This document shows, piece after piece, positions 33,533-47,330 of a DNA stretch of 64,000 nucleotides. The translations under genes were made by a program, and so were the position numbers. Within the stretch, counting starts at the first letter, position 1. The number at the start of each line of letters is the position of its first letter. This DNA comes from a bacterium (GTDB taxonomy: Bacteria > Patescibacteriota > Gracilibacteria > BD1-5 > UBA6164), in the NCBI GenBank assembly GCA_024635475.1, contig JAGXIW010000005.1, forward strand, positions 62,001 through 126,000, read 5' to 3'. The notes beneath the pieces were generated by a model, which was given only the letters and a program-made list of their open reading frames with translations, did no database searches and was not told the origin of the DNA.

Positions 33533-34270
33533 ATGCTTACCAATATACTTGAAGATTATTGATTTTCGCATAAAGAAGCCAAAATATACCTTACTTGTTT
33601 GGAATTAGGTAATTCTATAGTAAGTGCTATTGCAAGACATTCTGGAGAAAATAGAATCACAACATATTCAATATTAAAAGATCTAAAAAAAAGATGAATA
33701 GCAAATGAAATCACAAAAAATAGTGTGAAGTATTTTAGTGTTGTTTCTCCTGAAAAGTTACTTGAAATCGAAAAAAATAAAATAAATAAATTAAAAAATA
33801 TAATGCCTGAATTACTCGCTATTTCTAATAGTTTTTGAAATAAACCAAAAGTTTATTTTTATGAATGATTTGAAAGGGTAAAAAATTTATTTAAAGAAAT
33901 AGTTGATTATTGAGATTATTTAACCGAACCATTTTTGACTTTTGTTTGAACAACAGATATGGATCCAAGGTTTGATGAATATTTTTCCAATGAATTTTTT
34001 GAATATAGGAAAACTCAAAAAAATCCTACAAAAGCAATAATAGCAGATAATAAATCTAAATATACAAATTATCATCTTGATATGCATAACACTTTGATAA
34101 TTGAAGATCCTATATTTGAGATGTGAAATGAAATAGTTATTTATTGAAATAAAATAGCAGTTTTAAGTTACAAAAAAGATGAGATTTATGGTTTGATAAT
34201 AGAAAGTGAGGTACTTAGTAAATGACTCAAGAGTATGTTTAACTTAATTTGGAAAGCTTATAAAAAATAA
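33533..34270 (+). CDS. TrmB-family transcriptional regulator
   Basis: MLTNILEDYGFSHKEAKIYLTCLELGNSIVSAIARHSGENRITTYSILKDLKKRGIANEI...; TrmB-type wHTH; 246 codons. Confidence 0.8.
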
Positions 34271-34297: not shown

Positions 34298-36373
34298 ATG
34301 TCAGTTAATAGCAAAATATCAGACTCATTTTTAAAAATTTGAAAATCAGTTTTAAATCTAGCAGAAGTAATTAAAAAAACTCCTGGTATTTTGACATATT
34401 TTATTAATTGAGAAAAAAAGGATTTAAAAGATATTTCAAAATTAAATAATAAAAACTTTAAATTTTATGTTTGAGAAACTAAAAAATATGAAAAAGATCA
34501 ATTTTATTCAGAAAATTTTTATATTTGAGCAATTGCTAATTTAATTGATTTGCTTGAAAATGGTTGAAGTCTGGATATAGAAGTCTGAGCAGATGTAAGT
34601 AAGATTATGAATGAAAACTGAGAGGTTTCTAATAGTATGACAACACAAGAACAAATTGAATTTATAAGAGAAATAATAAGAAAAAATTTTAAAAAATTTG
34701 AAAACAAAATAAACATTATTAATACTTCGAAAAGACACCCTGAACTTTTTCAAGAATTGGAGCAAAATTGACTTGATTGATTAAATAGTGATAAGAATGA
34801 ATTAGAATTATGAGAAAAATTTAAATCTTTAGATATAGCTAAATTACTTTATGGAGCTTGTAAAGAGAATGAAATTTTCTTTAATAAAATAAAATGAACA
34901 AGACCAGAAAAAATCAAAGAAAATGATTTAGAAAAACCAAAATATTATTCAATTATTGAAATAGCTTTTCGTTTTACGGATTATATTAATTGAATAAATA
35001 TCCATGGCTGAGAAAGGAGACAAGAAAGGTATGATGTAATAATTAGATGAATAATAAATTGAGATTATAATCATATACCTACAATCAAAAAAATATATAA
35101 TTTTCTACAAACTAGACAAAATTTATGAACTTTTGGTTCTCTTCATTTTAATAAAAAAATTTTTGAAAAAGAATTGGAAGAAACAAAAAAGATAAAAAAA
35201 TGAAAAATTATAAATTTAATTTGAATGGTATCATTATCCGTCTGGTTTATACTAACTTGAGTTTCTGACTGTAAACAAAAAAAAGTATATTGTATTAGTG
35301 AGAGGCAAAAATCTTTAATATTAGATATTTTGCATTGAGTTTCTCTAACTCAATATATATGATGAGTATGAAATCAAGAATATACAACAGAAGACCAAAA
35401 AAATGAAAGAATTAATTATTTATGAGAGAAATTGGTTGGTTTATTTATTAGAAGATATTGAGAATGAGATTTTGAGGTAGAAAAATTACAATTATTTTTT
35501 ATTTTGAAAATCATTGAGTTAAAAGAATATAGTTTTAATGAAATGAATTATTGAGATAAATTGTATTTGAGATTAATAGATGAAATTTTGGATGATTCAA
35601 TAAACAAAACTAAGTTAGTATCATATTGATTTAATGTTGATAATAATTATTGAAAATATATTGAATATAAAGAAGATTTTTCAAATACATATAAATCAGA
35701 TATTGAATTAGAATTAGATGAATCAGATGTAAAAAAAATCTGAGAATATATGAGTAAAGATTGAACTCCCTCAGATATTGCTTTATATAAAAAAGATTGA
35801 AAAAAATATATAGTTGCAAGAAATTATTCGTATGGTAAATATAGTTTTGAAAAAGCAAAGGTAGTTTCTTTAGATTTTTTATGAACACCTTTTAATTATT
35901 TCAGTACTTTATTAATGAAAACATGAAGCTCTATTTGAGATGATTTTTATCACTTGGATGAGCAAATTATCAAATTCTTAGTTGATAAAGTTATTAGTTG
36001 AGAAACAAATGTAAAAGATATAAAAAATTGGAATTTAATAGATAAAATAGATTTTTTATATAAAAATTTTCCTGATAAATTTAGTTTTGATTTAAAAGAA
36101 GTATTGAATAATACAATAAATATGCCACAAGTGCTTGTAGATGAAATTGTAAAAAATAAAATGAGTTTATTTTTTACAAAAGTTTGAATATATACATTGG
36201 ATGAAAAGGATAAATTAGAATATAGTGTTTATGTTTATGAATATAAACAAAAAAGATATTTTATTTTAGATATGTGATGAGATAATTTTTGAGAATCATT
36301 AAAAATATATTTGAATGAAAGTAGATTTAGTGATTGAAAAGAATTTGCCAAAAAATTATTAAAACTGTTGTAG
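34298..36373 (+). CDS. Large hypothetical protein with predicted TM segment
   Basis: 692-codon frame with TGA=Gly: MSVNSKISDSFLKIGKSVLNLAEVIKKTPGILTYFING...; IINLIGMVSLSVWFILTGVSDC hydrophobic segment. Confidence 0.65.
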
Positions 36374-36461: not shown

Positions 36462-38108
36462 ATGCCTCAATCAAATATTTGTACTTCGTGTAATAAAGAA
36501 TTTGATTTTTCTCAAACAGAAAAAGATTTTTTTATTAAATTCAAAGTTCCAGAAACATGAGAATGTTATATGTGTCAACTAAAACAGATGATGGCTTTTT
36601 GGCCTTCTATTTGAAAATGGAATGCTAGAAAATGTGATTTTTCTTGAGAAAATATTGTTACAAATTATGGGGCTAATTCTCGTTTTCCAGTTTATAAAAA
36701 AGAATATTTTAACTCAGATAAGTGGGAAGTACCATTTTTGGATTTAGATATGAATAAATCTTTTTTTGCTCAAGTAAAAGAACTTCAAGAAAAAACACCA
36801 AGACCACATCAACTTTGAGATAATCTAGAAAATTGTTTATTTTGTGATGATGCACGGAGCAGTAAAAATTGTTATTTATCAACAAGTTTTTTAAATTGTG
36901 AAGATTTATATTATTCTTATAGATGTGTTGAATGTAAATCCTCTACTGATTTATTTTTTTGTTGAAATTCTTCATTTTGTACAGATTTAATTTATTCAAC
37001 TAATTGCTATAAAGTTAGTTATTCTGTTTTTGTAAATGATAGTTCTGACAGTTTATTTTTGTATGATTGTCAAAATACAAAAAACTGTTTTATGTCATGG
37101 AATCTCAGAAATGCTGAATATTGTATCAGAAATATACAGTACTCAAAAGAAGATTATTATAAAGAAGTAGAAAAATATGATTTTTGATCAAGGAAACAAA
37201 TTGAAATATTACAAAAAGAATTTGAAGAAAACATTAAAAACGAAGTTTATCATCCAGAAAATAGAAATGTAGCATGTGAAGATGTTACTTGAAACCTTTT
37301 AACAAATTCAAAAAATATTAAAAAATCATTTTTTATTCAAGAATCAGAAGATTCTATTAATTTATTTAGATGATTATGATTAAAAAATTCAATGAACTTG
37401 TTATCAATTCTTGAAAGTGATAGTTGTTATTTAACAAACCTATCAGCATATTTACATAATGTTAAATTTTCATCTTTTTCAACTAGGTGTAATAACTCAG
37501 AATATTTGGATAATTGTATAGATTTAGAATATTGTTTTTTATGTGTATGATTAAAAAATAAGAAATATTGTATTTTAAATAAAGAATATTCACAAAAAGA
37601 ATACGAAGAATTACTTCCAAAAGTAAAATTAAAAATGTGGCAAATATGAGAGTATTGAAAATTTTTTCCTTATTCTATGATGTATACAGATTATAATTCA
37701 ACTATTGCAAGAATATATTTTCCTGATACAAAAGAAAACATAGAAAATTTATGAGGTTATTATGAAAATAATGATAATTCTAAAAATACATTTATTGAAG
37801 ATAGTTTACCAGATAATATAAGAGATTTTAAGGATTGATTAAATTGAATAGAAACGATTTGTACCAAAACATGAAAAAATTTTAATTATATTTCTCAGGT
37901 AATAGAACTACACAAAAAAATAAATTTACCACTCTTTTCTATTTTTCATATAAATAGGATTACTAAAGGTTTTAAATATCTACAATTTAAGGAATATAAT
38001 TCTAAATGTTACATCTCATGAAAACAAATAAAACATTATTATAATCCAGAATTTGGTTATAAGAAAATAATTTCAAATGAAGAATATCAAGAAATAGTTA
38101 ATTCTTAA
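36462..38108 (+). CDS. Cys-rich protein family, paralog 1
   Basis: MPQSNICTSCNKEFDFSQTEKDFFIKFKVP...many DC..C/NC motifs...VGLKNKKYCILNKEYSQKEYEELLPKV; 549 codons. Confidence 0.8.
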
Positions 38109-38119
38109 TATAAAGCAGT

Positions 38120-39619
38120 ATGCAAGATTTAAAGTTTCGGGAAGATAAAATCAAAGAAAAAAGAAAACACACTCCATGGAAAAAATTTATAAAAGAAATA
38201 GCAAGCTATTATTGAATTGTTTTACATAAAAACGATTGATTTATTTCAAAGTACCCAAAAAGTGAAAGAATTTGAAAAATAGTAAAAACTATAGAGTATG
38301 AAGATATTAGAGAAAATTTCACTAAATATTGAGTAGATTATGATTTTTCAAAAAATATATTTGAAAATATAAGACTTTTGAAGCAAAAAACAGAATTTCC
38401 AAATCTATCAACTTACGGATGAGCTGAAAATTGTGATTTTGCTGATACGACTCATAATACAAAAAATGCATATTTAAGTTTTGGTGCTACATGGGATAAT
38501 GAAAATATATTGTATAGTTCTTGTATAAAATGAAAATGTGTAAATGTTTTTAATAGTGTAATGGCTTGGGATTGTTCAGAAAATATATATTTTTGTAATT
38601 GAATTATTAAATGATACAAGATTTTTTACTCAAAATTTATAATGAATTCAAATAATATATGGTTTTCAAGAAATTTAAATTGATGTAGTGAATGTATATT
38701 TTGTGATTCTCTAGACAATAAAAAATACTGTATAAAAAATAAACAGTTAGATGAAAAGACTTACTTTGAAGAAAAAGAAAAAATACTTAAAAACAAAAAA
38801 TCATTTTTAGATATTTATAATAAAATCCCTACAGATTGAAAAAACTTTTGAAGTACTGATGTTGAATGAAATTTTATAGTTAATTCTCAAAATGTTTCTA
38901 ACTGACATTTTGCTTATCAAGTAAAAAATTGAAACAATTTAGTAATAGTTTGAAGTACTAGTAAATGATGCGAAAATATGTTTGATATATTTACTTGAGG
39001 TTCAGGTTATTCTTCTGATATGTATTGATGTTGTTCGGTTTGAACTACACAAAATATTTATATCTGAGAATCTATAGGAATGTCATCAAATATATATTAT
39101 AGTTTCAATATTCAAGATTGTTCGTTTTGTCTTTGATGTATATGATTAAAAAATAAATCGTTTTGTATTTTGAATAAGCAGTATAGCAAAGAGGAATGGT
39201 ATGAATTAGCTGACAAGATATTCTTTCAAATGGAAAGAGATTGAATTTTGTGAGAATTTTTCCCTTGAAGTTTAAATCCTCTTTATTTCAATGATACAAT
39301 GGCTTATTTGATTGATGATAGCTTTACAAAAGAAGAAGTAGAAAAAGATGGTTATATGTGGAGAGAAGAAAATATAAAGGTAGATATCTTAGATTGAGTA
39401 GATTTTATATCTGTGGAAAAATTAGATAAATATCAATGATATGATGAAAACTGAAATTGGCAAATAGATAAAGAAGTATTAAAAAAAGTTATAAAAGATG
39501 AAAACTGAAATATATATAAAATAGTACCAATAGAATATGACTTTCTGATAAAACACTCTTTACCATTACCAGAAATACATTGGTTAGATAGAATCAAATT
39601 AGGGTTTAAATTTAAATAA
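38120..39619 (+). CDS. Cys-rich protein family, paralog 2 (lacks N-terminal CxxC ribbon)
   Basis: MQDLKFREDKIKEKRKHTPWKKFIKEIASYYG...IGLKNKSFCILNKQYSKEEWYELADKI...; 500 codons. Confidence 0.78.
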
Positions 39620-39630
39620 TAAATAAAATT

Positions 39631-41385
39631 ATGCAAGAAAAAATAATTGAGACAAAAACTTGTAAACACTGTAATTCAAATTTTTTAATTACAGATTCAG
39701 ATTTAGAGTTTTATGATAAGGTTAGTCCAAAATTTAATTGAGAAAAATATCAAATTCCAACTCCAACTCTTTGTCCAGATTGTAGATCACAAAGGAGATT
39801 ATCATTTAGAAATGAAAGAAATCTATACAAAAGAAAGTGTGATGCAAGTGGTAAAGATATAATTTCAATATATTCTCCGGATAAACTTTATAAAGTATAT
39901 GAACAAAATGAATGGTGGAAGGATGAATCAATACCTTTTAAGTATGGAAAAGAATTTGATTTTACAAGAAGTTTTTTTGAACAGTTTGAGGAGTTAATGA
40001 GTGAAGTACCAAGATTATCACTACATATCATTTGAAATGAAAATTGTAGTTTTGTAAACCAATGCTGATATTCTAAATGATGTTATTTATCATACAATAC
40101 TGATTATTCAGAGGATTGTTATTATTGTAGCAATGTTATAAGATCTAAAAATTGTGTTGATTTACTTAATGCAGATAATTGTGAGTTATGTTATAGTTCT
40201 TTGGATATTAATTGATGTTATAAATGTTTTAATGTACAAGATTGTAAAAATTGTAATAATGTAAGTTTCTCTTTTTGACTTGAAAATTGTAATGATTGTT
40301 TTTGATGTGCGAATTTGAAAAATAAAAAATATAATATTTTTAATGAACAATATTCAAAAGAAGATTATGAAAATGAAGTAAAAAAATATTTTAATTGAAG
40401 TTTAAATAATTCTCTTGAAATTTCAGATAAATTCAAAAAACATAATTTAAAATTTCCAAGAAAATTAAATATCACCAACTGTGAAAATGTTATTTGAGAT
40501 AATTTATTAAATAGTAAAAATCTAAAATATTGTTTTGATTGTTTTTCTGATGAGAATTTAGCATTTTGTAATATTGTTAGCAATTGAAAAAATATATATG
40601 ATTTTGATGTAGGATGATATGATTGCGAACTAAATTTAGAAGTAGTTTCTTCTTGAGATAAAAATATCAATTGTATATTTTGTTCCAATATTTGGTGAAG
40701 TTGTTCAAATTTACAATATTGCGATGTTATAATATGATCAAATAATCTTTTTGGTTGTACAGGTCTTCGTAATGCTAAATATTGCATATTTAATAAACAA
40801 TATACTCGAGAACAGTACGAAGAACTAGTACCAAAAATTATAAAACATATGAAAACTACTGGAGAATGGGGAGAGTTTTTCCCAAGTTCTATTTCACCTT
40901 TTGGATACAACGAAACTGTAGCAAATGAGTATTTTTCAGTAAGCCCTCCCCTAGCCCCTCCCTATAAAAGAGGGGGATTAGAAAAAGTCCCTCCCCTTAC
41001 TAGGGAGAGGTTAGGAGGGGGCTTTAATTGGTCAACTTATGAACCACCATTTCCAAAAGTAGAAAAAATAATTCCTGCAAATATGCTTCCTGATAATATA
41101 GCCCAAATTCCAGATGATATACTAAATCGGGCGGTTGAGTGTGAAGTTACAAAAAAACCATTTAAAATAATTAAACAAGAACTTGATTTTTATAGGAAAT
41201 ACAATTTAGGGGTTCCAAGAAGACATCCAGACCTTAGGCATTTAGATAGAATGGCTTTAAGAAATCCAAGAAAATTATTTTCAAGAAATTGTGATAAATG
41301 TTGAAAAAATATAAGCACAACTTATTCTTCAGATAGATCTGAAATAGTTTATTGTGAAGAATGTTATAATAAAGATATTTATTAA
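39631..41385 (+). CDS. Cys-rich protein family, paralog 3, with an in-frame repeat insertion
   Basis: KTCKHCNSNFLITDSDLEFYDKVSPKFNGEKYQIPTPTLCPDCRSQRRLSFRNERNLYKRKCD...HPDLRHLDRMALRNPRKLFSRNCDKCGKNISTTY...IVYCEECYNK; 585 codons. Confidence 0.85.
40943..41023. repeat. GC-rich palindromic repeat B inside coding sequence
   Basis: ccctcccctagcccctccctataaaagaggggg...ccctccccttactagggagaggttaggaggggg, translated in frame as SPPLAPPYKRGGLEKVPPLTRERLGGGF. Confidence 0.85.
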
Positions 41386-41395
41386 TATTTATAGT

Positions 41396-43093
41396 ATGCA
41401 AGAAAAAGTTATTCAAACAAAAATCTGTAAAAAATGTAATATTAGTTTTAATATTACAGATAAAGATTTAGAGTTTTATGATAAAATTTCACCAAAATTT
41501 AATTGAGAAAAATATCAAATTCCAACACCTACTTTGTGTCCAGATTGTAGACAACAAAGAAGATTTTGTTGGAGGAATGAAAAGAGTTTATATAGAAGAA
41601 AGTGTGATTTAACTTGAAAAGATATTTTATCTATTTTTTCTCCTGATAAAAAATATGTAATTTATAATAGTGATGATTGGTGGAGTGATAAATGGGATTC
41701 ACTTGATTATTGAACAGATTATAATTTTGATAAAACCTTTTTTGAACAATTTGATAATCTTCAAAGAAAAGTACCACTTTTAAACTTGACTGCTGCTTTT
41801 GATTCTGAAAATTCAGATTATGCAACATTTGCATGAAAAATGAAAGATTGTTATATGATTTCAGGTGCTTGGATATGCGAAAAAACAATGTATTCTTCTA
41901 GAATAATTTATACAAATAATGTTCTTGATTCTTTAGATTGAACTAATTTGGAGCAATCTTACCAGACTATAAACTGTGAAGGATGTTATTCTTGTATTTA
42001 TTGTATGAATTCAAATAATTGTAAAACTTCATACTTTTTATATGATTGTGAAAACTGTTCTGATTGTTTTATGTGTTACAATCTTGTTTGAAAAAAATAT
42101 TATATTGATAATAAAGCATATACAAAGGAAGATTATTTTAAAAAAATAGAAGAATTAAAACAAAAATATTTTACGATTTGATTGAGTGTATTAGATGAAA
42201 TGAAAAAAAAGGCTATAAATAAAAATCTTATGATTATTGGTTCTGAGGATTGTATTTGAGATAATTTAAAAAATTGTAAGAATTGTAATTATTCATTCCA
42301 TTTGGAAAATTCCCAAAATTGTAAATATGCAGAAAATTGATGAATGGGGTGTTCCAATGTCTATGATGGGATGTGAATATGAGAAAACTTGGATTTATGA
42401 TATGAAATACTTGATACTTGATTAAATGCAATTTGAACTTATTTTTGAATTACATGTTATACTTGCAACAATACTTTTTACAACATAAATTGTCATAATT
42501 GTTCAAATATATTTTGATGTATTTGAGTTAGAAATAAACAGTATTGCATATTAAATAAACAATATTCAAAAGAAGAATATAATCTACTAGTTCCAAAAAT
42601 TATAAAAAATATGAGAAAAAATGATGAATGGTGAGAATTTTTCCCATCTAATATTTCACCATTTTGATATAATGAGACAATTAATACCGAATATTTTCCA
42701 CTTAAAAAAGAAGAAGCTTTAAAATTAGGTTTTAATTGGTCAGATTATGAAGCCTCTTTTCCAAAAGTAGAAAAAATAATACCTGCCTCAAAATTACCTA
42801 AAAATATTGTGGATATTCCTGATGATATATTGAATCGGGCAATTGAGTGTGATGTTACGAAAAAACCATTTAGAATAGTTAAACAAGAATTAGATTTTTA
42901 TAGAAAACATAATTTACCAATACCAAAAATACATCCAGATAGGAGGCATCTAGATAGAGTAGCTCTTAGAAATCCAAGAAGAATATATGATAAAAATTGT
43001 GATAAATGTTGAAAAGATATAAAAACAACTTATCCTTTAGATAGCAAAGAAATAATTTATTGTGAAGAGTGTTATAACAAAACTGTATATTAA
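41396..43093 (+). CDS. Cys-rich protein family, paralog 4
   Basis: KICKKCNISFNITDKDLEFYDKISPKFNGEKYQIPTPTLCPDCRQQRRFCWRNEKSLYRRKCDLTGKDILSIFSPDKKYVIYNSDDWWSDKWD...; 566 codons. Confidence 0.85.
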
Positions 43094-43166
43094 GATACTG
43101 TATACTTCGTAATCTTGATGAAGAAGTATAATAAATAGATATATTAATTAAAAAATAATTAACCAG

Positions 43167-44324
43167 ATGATGCTACAAGATTTTAAAAAAAATTCACAAA
43201 AATTTGAAACACCTTTATATATTTATGATGCTGATAAAATTAAAGAAAATTTTTTTGCTATATCAGAGTTAATAACTTCCACAAAAAATCGTATATATTT
43301 TGCAGTTATGTGTAATAGTGAGACAGAAATTTTAAAAATAATAAAAAGTTTAGGTTTAGGAGTTCAAGTAAATTCAGAATATGAATTAGATTTGGTTAAC
43401 GAGGCAGGTTTCAATTCTTCAGATATTTCTTTTACAACAACATGAATTAGTAAAGAATTAATGAAGAGATTAATAACTGAAAATATCGAAGTTAATCTAG
43501 ATTCTGTTGAAGAAGTTGAAAAATATTGTTTATTAATAACAAATAAAAAATTTGGAATTAGAATAAAAATTTCTGAAAAAATAAAAATAAATTCTAATGG
43601 GGCAACAAATCTTTTTTCTGATTCTAATGTGTGAATTGAAGAAAAAGATTTAAAAAAAGTAATAGAAATTGCAAAAAAAACGGGTAATAAAATTAATGGA
43701 GTTCATTGATATTTTGCATCCAATGTTCTTGATACAGAACTTTTTATTGAGTTTTGAGATTTTTTGACTAATATAGCTTTAGGATTTTCTGATTTAGAAT
43801 ATATTAATTTTAGCAGTGGGTTTTGAATTAAATATTCAGAGGAAGATAAAGATTTTGATTTTGAAAAGGTTTTAAAATATTATTCATATTTAACTAATAA
43901 ATTGTCTGAAATTTTTAAAAAAGAAATTATTTTAAAAATTGAACCTTGAAGATCTTTATTAGCTGATGCTGGGACTTTATTAGTTAAGGTTACAAATATA
44001 AAAAGTTTAAATTCTAAAAAATCAGAAATTTCAGTAAATGCTGGTTTTTGAGAACTTGCAAGACCAAAAATATATAAATCATTTCATGAAATTAAAAATT
44101 TAGAAGAAACATGAAAACCTAAAAAAATTTATGATATAAGATGAAATACAGCTTTGCAAGATGATTTTTTGTGAAGAGATGTAGAACTAGAAGTAACTGA
44201 TGAAGGTGATTATCTTTTAATAGAAAAAGTCTGAGCATATGGATTTGTAATGGCTTCCGGATTTCCAGGAAAAAAATTACCTATGCAAATATTGGTGAAT
44301 GGTAATGAAATCAAAATATTATAA
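43167..44324 (+). CDS. Group IV PLP-barrel decarboxylase homolog (LysA/NspC-like) lacking the PLP lysine
   Basis: TPLYIYDADKIKENFFAI...NRIYFAVMCNSETEILKIIKSLGLGVQVNSEYEL...EPGRSLLADAGTLLVKV...GAYGFVMASGFPGKK; 386 codons. Confidence 0.88.
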
Positions 44325-44366
44325 AAAATTGAAAAATATTAATTTTTTTTAATTTGAATTTGTATT

Positions 44367-46058
44367 ATGCAAGAAAAGATCATAGAAATAAAATCATGTA
44401 AACAATGTAATATTAGTTTTTTTATTACAGATAAAGATATTGAATTTTATGACAAAATTAGTCCTAAATTTAATTGAGAAAAATATCAAATTCCAACACC
44501 TACTCTTTGTCCTGAATGTCGTCAAATTAGAAGATTTGCTATTAGAAATGAAAGAAAACTTTATAAAAGGAAATGTGATGTGACTTGAAAAGATATTATT
44601 TCAATTTATAGCCCAGATAAGCCATATAAAGTGTATGAACAAAGTGAATGGTGGTCTGATAAATGGGATCCTCTTGATTATTGAAGAGATTTTGATTTTT
44701 CAAGAAATTTTTTCAATCAATTTGAAGAATTATTAAGAGATGTACCTAAATTATCAATGACATCAATTGAAAATTTAAATTCAGATTATTTGAATATATC
44801 AGCTAATTGTAAGAATTGTTATTTATCTTTTGCAATAAAAGATTGTGAAAATACTTTATATTCATATTGGATAACAAATAGTACAAATTGTTTGGATTGT
44901 AACGGGGTGGAAAATAGTACAAATTGTTATGAACTTGTTGATTGTTCCAATTGTTATGATGTAACATATTCTCAAAAATGTATTGATTGTTCTGAATCAA
45001 CTTATTTGTATGATTGTACTTGATGTGATAAATGTTTTTTATGTGCATGAATTAGAAGTAAAAAATATTGTATATTAAATATTCAATTTAAAAAAGAAGA
45101 TTATTATAATGAAGTGGCAAAATTGAATATTGATGAAACTTATTTTGATTTATTTTTAGATAAATATAATAATTTATTAAAAAAAACTCCAAGAAAAAAT
45201 TTGGATATTATAAATAGTGAAGATTCAATTTGAGATAATATAAAATATAGTACAAATTGTGAAAATAGTTTTCATATTGTAAACTGAAATAATATAAAAT
45301 ATTCAACTTTTTGTAAAGTTGGTGCAGAAGATTGTTTAGATAATGATTATTTTGGTGTGAATACAAAATTTTCATATGAAAGTGTATCAGCTTGAATAGA
45401 GTCGAAAAAATGTTTATTTGATAATATTGTTTGGACTTGCAATGAAATTTATTATTCTGATAATTGTTTTTCAACTTCAAATATTTTTTGATCAGCTTGA
45501 CTTAATCATAAAAAATATTGCATATTAAATAAACAATATGAGAAAAGTGAGTATGAAAAACTAGTGCCCAAAATAATAGAACATATGCAAAAAACTTGAG
45601 AATGGTGAGAATTCTTTCCAGCAAAAATTTCACAATTTTGATATAATGAAACAGTTGCACAAGAATATTTTCCATTATCAAAAGAAGAAGCTTTAAAAAA
45701 ATGATTTAAGTGGAGTGACTATGATCAATTATTTCCAAAAGTAGAAAAAATAATAACTGCTAATAAACTACCTAAAAATATTGTGGATATTCCAAATGAT
45801 ATCCTAAATTGGGCAATAGAATGCGAAATTACAAAAAAGCCTTTTAAAATAACATCTCAAGAACTCGATTTTTATAGAAAACACAATTTACCAATCCCAA
45901 AAAAACATCCTGACCTTAGACATTTAGATAGAATGAAACTAAGAAACCCTAGAAAATTATATGATAGAAAGTGTGATAAATGTGGTGTTGACATAAAAAC
46001 TACTTATAATCCTCTAAGACCTGAAATAGTTTATTGTGAAGAGTGTTACAATAAATAG
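44367..46058 (+). CDS. Cys-rich protein family, paralog 5
   Basis: KSCKQCNISFFITDKDIEFYDKISPKFNGEKYQIPTPTLCPECRQIRRFAIRNERKLYKRKCDVTGKDIISIYSPDKPYKVYEQSEWWSDKWDPLDYGRDF...CDKCGVDIKTTYNPLRPEIVYCEECYNK; 564 codons. Confidence 0.85.
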
Positions 46059-46146: not shown

Positions 46147-46608
46147 ATGTCAAATTATGAACAATGAGTATGAGATATTTGAAAAATCCCAAAAGATATA
46201 AAAATAGCTTTTGTAGTTGCGGAATTTAACAAAGAGTATACAAGTGCACTTGAAGCTATAAATATATGAGTTCTAAAACAACATTGATTTAATAAAATAG
46301 AAAGTTTTTATGTACCTTGAGCTTTTGAAATACCTGCTATGACTAAGAGATTGCTTGAAACAGAAGAGTGGGATTTAATTATAACTTTATGAGTAGTAAT
46401 AAAATGAGAGACTCCCCATTTTGATTATGTTTGTAGTGAATCATCAAGGTGATTAATGAATTTGACTTTACAATATGATACTCCAATAATTTTTTGAATA
46501 TTGACTTGTAATACTGAAAAACAGGTAAAAGATAGAATAAAATGAGCTTATGCTTTATCAGGACTTAATTTACTTAGTGAATTAATATTAAAATGACTTT
46601 TATATTAA
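46147..46608 (+). CDS. ribH: 6,7-dimethyl-8-ribityllumazine synthase
   Basis: IAFVVAEFNKEYTSALEAINIGVLKQHGF...FYVPGAFEIPAMTKRLLE...LITLGVVIKGETPHFDYVCSESSRGLMNLTLQYDTPIIFGILTCNTEKQ; 154 codons. Confidence 0.95.
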
Positions 46609-47330
46609 AATGAATAGTAGTTCATGGCAAGGAATTATGAAGAAAAATATGATTTAAAACAGCAAATATTATTTGTAATTCAAATAATATAGATGATTGA
46701 GTATATAAAATCAATATAATAATTAATAAGATAAAATTCTCTTGAGTTTGAACATATTTAAAAGAAAAATGAATTTTTGAATCTCATATATTTAACTTTA
46801 ATAAAAATATATATGATACAGAAATAGAAATTTATTTGTTAAAAAAAATAAGAAATAATAAGAAATTTGATTCATTAGATGATTTAAAATCACAGATTGA
46901 AGCAGATATCATTTGGGCTAAAAAAAATATAATAAAAGTGATGACTTTTGGTACTTTTGATATATTTCATCTTGGACATAGATATTTTTTAAGAGAAGCT
47001 AGCTTTTATGGAAATTGTCTTATAACTATTGTTGCTAGAGATAAAAATGTATTAAAATTTAAATGATTCAAACCAAAAAATAATGAAAAAAAAAGAGTAG
47101 AAAAACTAAAAAAAATGAAAGTTGCAGATATTGTTGAATTATGAGATAGTGATAATCCGTTATTTTGGGTTTTTATTCATAATCCTCAAATTATATGTCT
47201 TTGATACGATCAAGAGTGATTTTATAAAGAGTTAAAAGATAATAACAAAATTAATAATATAGAAATTAATAGACTTAATTCATATAAACCTGAGATTTAC
47301 AAATCTTCATTATTAAAATATATGATATAA
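46593..47330 (+). CDS. Riboflavin kinase domain fused N-terminal to a nucleotidyltransferase (putative FAD synthase)
   Basis: GIVVHGKELGRKIGFKTANIIC..NNIDDGVYKINI...EIYLLKKIRNNKKFDSLDDLKSQIEADI then MTFGTFDIFHLGHRYFLREASFYGNCLITIVARDKNVLKFKG; overlaps the ribH end; 246 codons. Confidence 0.82.

Follow-up and report, generated by a model that had tools for sequence, protein, structure and literature searches.

About 31 copies of one protein family are carried by the genome analysed here (1.35 Mb, of which they make up 3.8%), and these copies join ends that are largely constant within the genome to beta-solenoid middles that are specific to each type. That they form a repertoire of non-redundant types is well supported. 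As an explanation, it comes close to an even prospect that these are non-redundant dedicated binding proteins which work with one soluble ATPase of the VirD4/VirB4/HerA type, as adaptors or, less likely, as cargo.

Gene array in the window

The window is the whole stretch of DNA that was analysed, 64,000 nucleotides in length. The source genome reads TGA as glycine, as is evident from an HSP70 frame that runs through 21 TGA codons, and the frames of the family are broken under table 11 for this reason. The five family open reading frames were read with code 25 (TGA = Gly). All five lie on the + strand and encode 499–584 aa, in agreement with the preliminary description of five genes of some 500–585 aa on one strand, although its term "giant" does not suit proteins of this size. 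Gene 1 (36462..38108; 548 aa) is a divergent long type that retains its N-terminal CxxC..CxxC site and has lost its C-terminal zinc site, and gene 2 (38120..39619; 499 aa) is a short type without zinc modules, of which eight further copies are found in another array of the genome (C4). Gene 3 (39631..41385; 584 aa), gene 4 (41396..43093; 565 aa, starting at the first ATG of the 41354 open reading frame), and gene 5 (44367..46058; 563 aa) belong to the long type, in which two solenoids are placed between two zinc modules. Gene 3 also contains a small in-frame insert (approximately 40941–41023) with arms that appear imperfectly inverted by eye; a repeat search returned no inverted repeat.

The five genes are homologous, with 54–57% identity to gene 5 for genes 3 and 4 and 31% for genes 1 and 2, and their described paralogy is thus confirmed. 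The tandem arrangement holds insofar as the five follow one another in series, but genes 4 and 5 are separated by a LysA-like PLP decarboxylase gene (43167–44324). Likewise, the claim of flanking zinc modules applies to genes 3–5, which carry the named motifs, but not to gene 2 and only at the N-terminus to gene 1. Upstream of the array is a TrmB-family HTH regulator (33533..34270, + strand), the gene family of which is found again next to the arrays of other genomes. Between this regulator and gene 1 lies a gene for a 691 aa protein of no known family with one hydrophobic segment (34298..36373, + strand). A homologue with 34% identity is found at the corresponding position in another genome from this genus, and membership of this protein in the system is uncertain.

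Predicted architecture and cysteine pattern

Structure prediction, which had been proposed as a check, gave a confident AlphaFold2 model of gene 5 (pLDDT 93.2, pTM 0.91), and the solenoid fold that had been suspected from the periodic cysteines is borne out by two beta-solenoids with strands spaced about every 12 residues. The model begins with an N-terminal zinc module (residues 6–105; 44382..44681), followed by solenoid 1 (residues 130–235; 44754..45071), which is built of 12-residue coils with Cys at every third residue. A helical hairpin then leads to solenoid 2 (residues 281–378; 45207..45500) and a C-terminal zinc module (residues 470–563; 45774..46055), all on the + strand. Both domain types are internal duplicates, as solenoid 2 is homologous to solenoid 1 and the C-terminal module to the N-terminal one. 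The first CxxC..CxxC site is intact and the second lost in the N-terminal module, while the first is lost and the second intact in the C-terminal module.

The periodic Cys pattern proved to exceed chance. In solenoid 1 of four genes, every Cys falls in a single residue phase modulo 3 (52/52; 15/15, 11/11, 14/14, and 12/12; p<=5e-5, with 20,000 shuffles per gene), and in gene 2 this is true of 7/9 (p=0.018). Cys autocorrelation is restricted to multiples of 3, with peaks at 3 and 12. The every-third positions are occupied by C (44%) and S (20%), then by L/V/I/A/T/G, with less than 1% charged residues and no His, and this composition is the packing signature of a narrow 12-residue coil. A metal ladder or store, in which cysteine rods would bind Zn, Cu, or Fe lengthwise, might have been expected from the mean Cys content of 6.5% and from the near-invariant run C217/C220/C223/C226 that closes solenoid 1. 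However, Cys at most core positions exchanges with Ser, Leu, Val, and Ala and never with His, which together with the coil packing argues against a ladder; in metallothionein-like stores, by comparison, Cys is kept as a ligand and replaced by other ligands only. Some 30 different conserved surfaces would also be needless for a store. As such, the metal-laddered alternative of the preliminary description is very improbable.

Repertoire and conservation

Of the approximately 31 copies, 25 are clustered on a contig other than that of the window. Paralogs of the source genome are 54–67% identical in their ends, 29–33% in their solenoids, and 17.5% in the strand face. The order is reversed in orthologues from different genomes, where solenoids are often 80–95% and ends 60–80% identical and the face also exceeds the ends, in a comparison of pairs that were picked by high solenoid identity. 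Nearest neighbours, which were not so picked, give the same contrast: the closest relative lies in the same genome for 44/128 N-terminal and 51/129 C-terminal modules, but for only 8/132 and 11/132 solenoids, with about 5 expected by chance. Zinc ends thus cluster by genome and solenoids do not. Within one genome, none of 839 solenoid pairs exceeds 61% identity; the short types, in which zinc ends are absent, have less divergent solenoids (51–54%). This pattern of ends and solenoids, with clustering by genome confined to the ends, indicates a non-redundant set of what would be dedicated binders under purifying selection, and a separate, unchanging target is probable for each copy. The copy number, the internal duplications, the constant ends with type-specific middles, and the linkage to TrmB regulators and an ATPase are all features that are invisible from one window.

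A linked ATPase

The family genes are linked with TrmB-type regulators and with a VirD4/VirB4-like ATPase that is encoded outside the window. This ATPase is present in 26/30 genomes of the class that carry the family and in 0/30 that do not; these are raw counts that ignore phylogeny, although the presence of the protein family is patchy within families f1, f3, f5, and f6. It adjoins solenoid genes in 23/26 genomes, and such adjacency also occurs in two distant Patescibacteria. A complete orthologue is missing from three or four family-positive genomes. Each genome has a single ATPase locus, and its other arrays, including that of the window, lie elsewhere. The motor domain and fold are common to VirD4/TrwB coupling proteins, VirB4/TrwK, and HerA, whereas the linked ATPase has an N-terminal region of its own, is soluble and lacks a membrane segment, and is encoded inside solenoid-gene arrays. 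In PADLOC, it partially matches mad8 and the HerA models of defence systems. VirD4 homologues are numerous in Patescibacteria, are seldom encoded near virB4, and have an open role (PMC12102498); the link described here supplies a genomic context for one set of them.

Discussion

If the proposed explanation is correct, the family proteins would be binders, probably cytoplasmic, with one dedicated target each. The two beta-solenoids of the long type would present a target-specific surface, the face of which we infer to bind the target, while the constant zinc modules may dock to a common machinery, presumably the ATPase. The operon-like arrays would be controlled by TrmB-type regulators, and their products would serve the dedicated soluble ATPase by recognising targets or, less likely, by being carried. 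More broadly, and more tentatively, it is possible that Gracilibacteria-class Patescibacteria possess an undescribed modular recognition system. A genome would encode up to about 30 non-redundant double-beta-solenoid proteins, every one of them directed at a different conserved target, and their genome-homogenised zinc ends would couple them to a dedicated VirD4/VirB4-like motor that collects or hands over particular molecules in support of an epibiotic life.

Several other functions were considered. Xanthomonas T4SS effectors have one recruitment domain in common, and a family in which one pair of ends is combined with many different middles resembles them. The family proteins could be effectors exported by a T4SS route into a host or prey cell, with constant ends that the coupling ATPase reads as a recruitment signal and solenoids that bind host targets, and both the dedicated ATPase next to the arrays and the patchy distribution would suit this. 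We regard it as unlikely, because that ATPase has no membrane segment, a single fold without enzymatic variety fills all middles, conservation of these middles extends to genera whose hosts may differ, and no immunity genes recur in the neighbourhood. A role as sensors inside the cell, in a conflict or anti-phage system where each solenoid type recognises one conserved foreign molecule and signals to the HerA/VirD4-like ATPase, would account for the non-redundant types, the patchy presence, the relation of the ATPase to HerA defence models and mad8, and the defence-like genes near the C4 array. This is rather unlikely in turn, as the family itself has no PADLOC match, the arrays have no recurrent neighbour that is a nuclease or another type of killing module, and up to 31 copies under TrmB-type control would be unusual for a defence locus.

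The Arg/Lys-rich, treble-clef-like zinc modules at both ends could instead bind DNA or RNA in regulators that are modulated by the solenoids. Specificity nevertheless resides in the solenoids, which carry a net acidic charge in 4/5 genes of the window, gene 2 being the neutral exception, and short types lack zinc modules entirely, which makes a nucleic-acid-binding regulator quite improbable. Antigenic variation, in which the arrays would be a source of changing surface proteins, recalls the large tandem arrays and a face that is very variable between copies of one genome. It is strongly disfavoured and hardly credible, as no part is better conserved between species than the face, no recent duplicates occur in any one genome, and gene 5 has no evident export signal or membrane segment. 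With dedicated binders as the preferred reading, the pattern of ends and middles turns a "hypothetical protein" into the question of what each solenoid targets.

Likeness to known proteins

About 4% of a 1.35 Mb genome is devoted to one family whose body has no match in Pfam, NCBIfam, or the PDB, in keeping with its description as an uncharacterised CPR family of no known function. A Foldseek-type search of the PDB and BFVD found no convincing structural counterpart, with top hits at global TM-scores of ~0.1 and rmsd >15 A that were mostly left-handed-helix enzymes. A published description was not found in the open-licence literature, which is weak evidence of absence. The ends weakly match the treble-clef modules zf_Tbcl (PF13451) and zf_Tbcl_2 (PF23477)/TIGR04272 at the expected places, below the curated cut-offs (at best 23.6 bits versus a gathering cut-off of 24, 23.0 versus 27, and 20.3 versus 36, respectively) and with the CxxC..CxxC pattern present; they differ from these modules in that each end has lost one of two sites.

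Beetle hyperactive antifreeze proteins (TmAFP) have a TCTxSxxCxxAx repeat, a 12-residue coil, and a Thr ice-binding ladder. The likeness is a fold analogy only and consists of the coil length, every third residue pointing inward, a Cys/Ser/Ala core, and one short strand per coil, whereas the present family is bacterial, places two solenoids between zinc modules, and lacks the Thr ladder. No antifreeze protein was among the PDB sequence hits or among the Foldseek matches listed. Pentapeptide-repeat proteins of the Qnr/MfpA type are likewise bacterial beta-solenoids with an acidic surface, but their period is 5/20 rather than 3/12, and the family has no Pfam match to them.

A viral origin was rejected, as IMG/VR yielded one contig-edge fragment and a phage collection nothing for gene 5. 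The solenoid is remotely matched by phrog_15341, which comprises hypothetical proteins of Campylobacter phages (E 8e-19 with a two-solenoid relative; 28–29% identity by tblastn); these have no known function and, unlike the family, are small single proteins that have no zinc ends or arrays. The small relative with a single solenoid is rare: of 192 genomes sampled, 2 had a full-length match to it.

Predicted structure

The five paralogs on the + strand of the window (36462-46058, read with code 25) represent a real and previously undescribed family, as the preliminary description proposed, and their body has no match in Pfam, NCBIfam or PDB. The solenoid fold guessed there is borne out by an AlphaFold2 model of gene 5 (116 homologues as input; pLDDT 93.2, pTM 0.91), in which a zinc module, a solenoid, a helical hairpin, a second solenoid, a helix and another zinc module follow one another, with one solenoid strand per about 12 residues. 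Foldseek searches of PDB and BFVD returned no convincing relative of the model. The N module is homologous to the C module (hhalign, E 3e-27) and solenoid 1 to solenoid 2 (E 2.6e-35), with no hhalign match between zinc modules and solenoids. Both ends are likely, from their CxxC pairs, to bind zinc, and they give sub-threshold matches to two treble-clef families. Of the two CxxC..CxxC sites, the first is intact in the N module and the second is mostly lost; in the C module it is the second that is intact and the first that is mostly lost.

In four window genes, all solenoid 1 cysteines fall in a single phase modulo 3, and Cys autocorrelation peaks at multiples of 3 only. This phase is occupied by C (44%), S (20%), L (8%) and otherwise V/I/A/T/G, with 0.9% charged residues and no His. 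Beetle antifreeze proteins such as TmAFP have a 12-residue helix with a core packed in the same way. Given this composition and likeness, the cysteines are best read as core packing, and the metal ladder suggested earlier is not supported. A 301 aa protein from a different part of the phylum (locus L047, 1024-1929) has two solenoid repeats without zinc modules and possibly resembles an ancestral form. A small, remotely solenoid-like hypothetical protein also lies among the replication genes of Campylobacter phage CP21 (CP21_192; L195, 3935-4360) and its relatives.

Divergence of solenoids and ends

Among the 21 long-type copies of the source genome, mean identity is 56% in the N and 67% in the C module, 33% and 29% in the solenoids, falling to 17.5% at coil positions 4, 5, 7 and 8, which make up the strand face. 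The order is reversed between genomes: in an orthologue comparison whose pairs were chosen by high solenoid identity (at least 80%), solenoids were more conserved than ends in 22/22 pairs and strand faces averaged 88-96%. Ten orthologues paired as reciprocal best matches between two other genomes, G135 and G252, likewise have solenoids (61-90%) ahead of ends (52-75%) in every case. No within-genome pair among 839 exceeds 61% solenoid identity. The nearest-neighbour contrast is free of the above selection: N modules have their closest relative within their own genome in 44/128 cases and C modules in 51/129, but the solenoids in only 8/132 and 11/132 (about 5 expected by chance); mean solenoid-1 identity is 34.3 within genomes and 34.4 between. 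From these contrasts, the ends are homogenised inside each genome and the solenoids are old types that different genomes have in common, with no type present twice in the same genome. This pattern fits a dedicated binder set under purifying selection rather than an arms race. Short types behave differently: since their solenoids are 51-54% identical among copies of the source genome, these proteins may themselves be a more uniform partner.

Copy number and distribution

The system is larger than the window, being multi-gene, patchy across the class and equipped with its own motor. About 31 family genes (51 kb, 3.8% of the assembly) are present in the source genome: 25 cluster at C4:48671-99624, one is on C7 and the window accounts for the other five. 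Nine, of about 470-515 aa and mixed among the long types, are of the short type, which has no zinc modules. One C4 copy (L022, G000:C4:73399-75096) is split by an in-frame TAA and is likely a pseudogene. Among 287 sampled Patescibacteria, the family was found in 18/26 class genomes, this one included, and in seven genomes from other parts of the phylum; a class sample gave 30/60 positive genomes. Copy number varies inside one genus; genome G319 has 10 matches and the array of G252 spans 32 kb. A contig scan located the family in MAGs that carry the labels Gracilibacteria, Peregrinibacteria, Peribacteria and Abawacabacteria, where as many as seven copies share about 13 kb. A full-length gene also occurs on a contig labelled Micrarchaeota archaeon (L118), which is probably patescibacterial and mis-binned.

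Linked genes and proposed function

Two gene families recur next to arrays, a ~750 aa ATPase and TrmB-type regulators. Near-full-length ATPase orthologues occur in 26/60 class genomes, all 26 of them family-positive (Fisher p 8e-13, uncorrected for phylogeny), and matches in the 30 family-negative genomes were all weaker, for the most part partial, and to related ATPases. In 23/26 genomes the ATPase gene has a family gene no more than 1.5 kb away; in two distant Patescibacteria, a homologous ATPase is directly followed by a small single-solenoid protein. The ATPase has TrwB/TraG motor domains and no membrane segment, and its model (pLDDT 86) resembles TrwK/VirB4, TrwB/VirD4, HerA and the Legionella coupling complex most closely. 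Of the 5,713 VirD4 homologues that a 2025 survey counted across 2,918 genomes of Patescibacteria, only 148 are close to virB4; the survey left exaptation of the coupling protein for other functions as a possibility (PMC12102498). In the source genome, the ATPase gene lies outside the window at C4:50563-52815. Next to it (L021, G000:C4:53652-56235) is a protein that matches PDC-S05, a candidate defence family, followed by two genes recognised by eye, one for an XRE-type HTH protein and one PemK/MazF-like.

The 74 loci L055-L128 contain 32 TrmB-type genes, spread over 24 loci, where source-genome density would give about 2. Of 45 TrmB-type genes, 27 are divergent from a family gene and within 400 bp of it. 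Across seven family-positive genomes, 13/26 adjoin arrays (binomial p 7e-11, assuming that arrays make up 5% of the genome); the five family-negative genomes checked carry 1-4 TrmB-type genes.

Protein anatomy, the make-up of the repertoire and gene linkage are what the data show. We infer that each solenoid pair would hold one specific target, and that the constant zinc ends would dock with shared machinery and present the target to it, this machinery most plausibly being the dedicated ATPase; TrmB regulators would set the timing of array production. A repertoire of dedicated binders, the core of this proposal, is quite probable, while the complete mechanism has slightly less than an even chance of being correct. 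Its main rivals are that the proteins are effectors exported from the cell or sensors acting within it. Roles as nucleic-acid regulators, in metal storage or in antigenic variation are less likely.

Gene layout in the window

TGA encodes glycine in this genome, and one HSP70 frame alone contains 21 TGA codons. Family genes 1-4 are spaced by 10-11 bp, and a LysA-like PLP decarboxylase scoring below the lysA cut-off (43167-44324) separates genes 4 and 5. A TrmB-family regulator (33533-34270) and a 691 aa protein not assigned to a family lie upstream. Downstream, at 46147-47330, ribH is followed by a RibF-like gene whose domain order is reversed from the usual one, with riboflavin kinase ahead of nucleotidyltransferase. 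Gene 3 contains a GC-rich in-frame insert (40941-41023) that encodes SPPLAPPYKRGGLEKVPPLTRERLGGG; it has imperfect inverted arms and the appearance of a small repeat element that a loop can accommodate.
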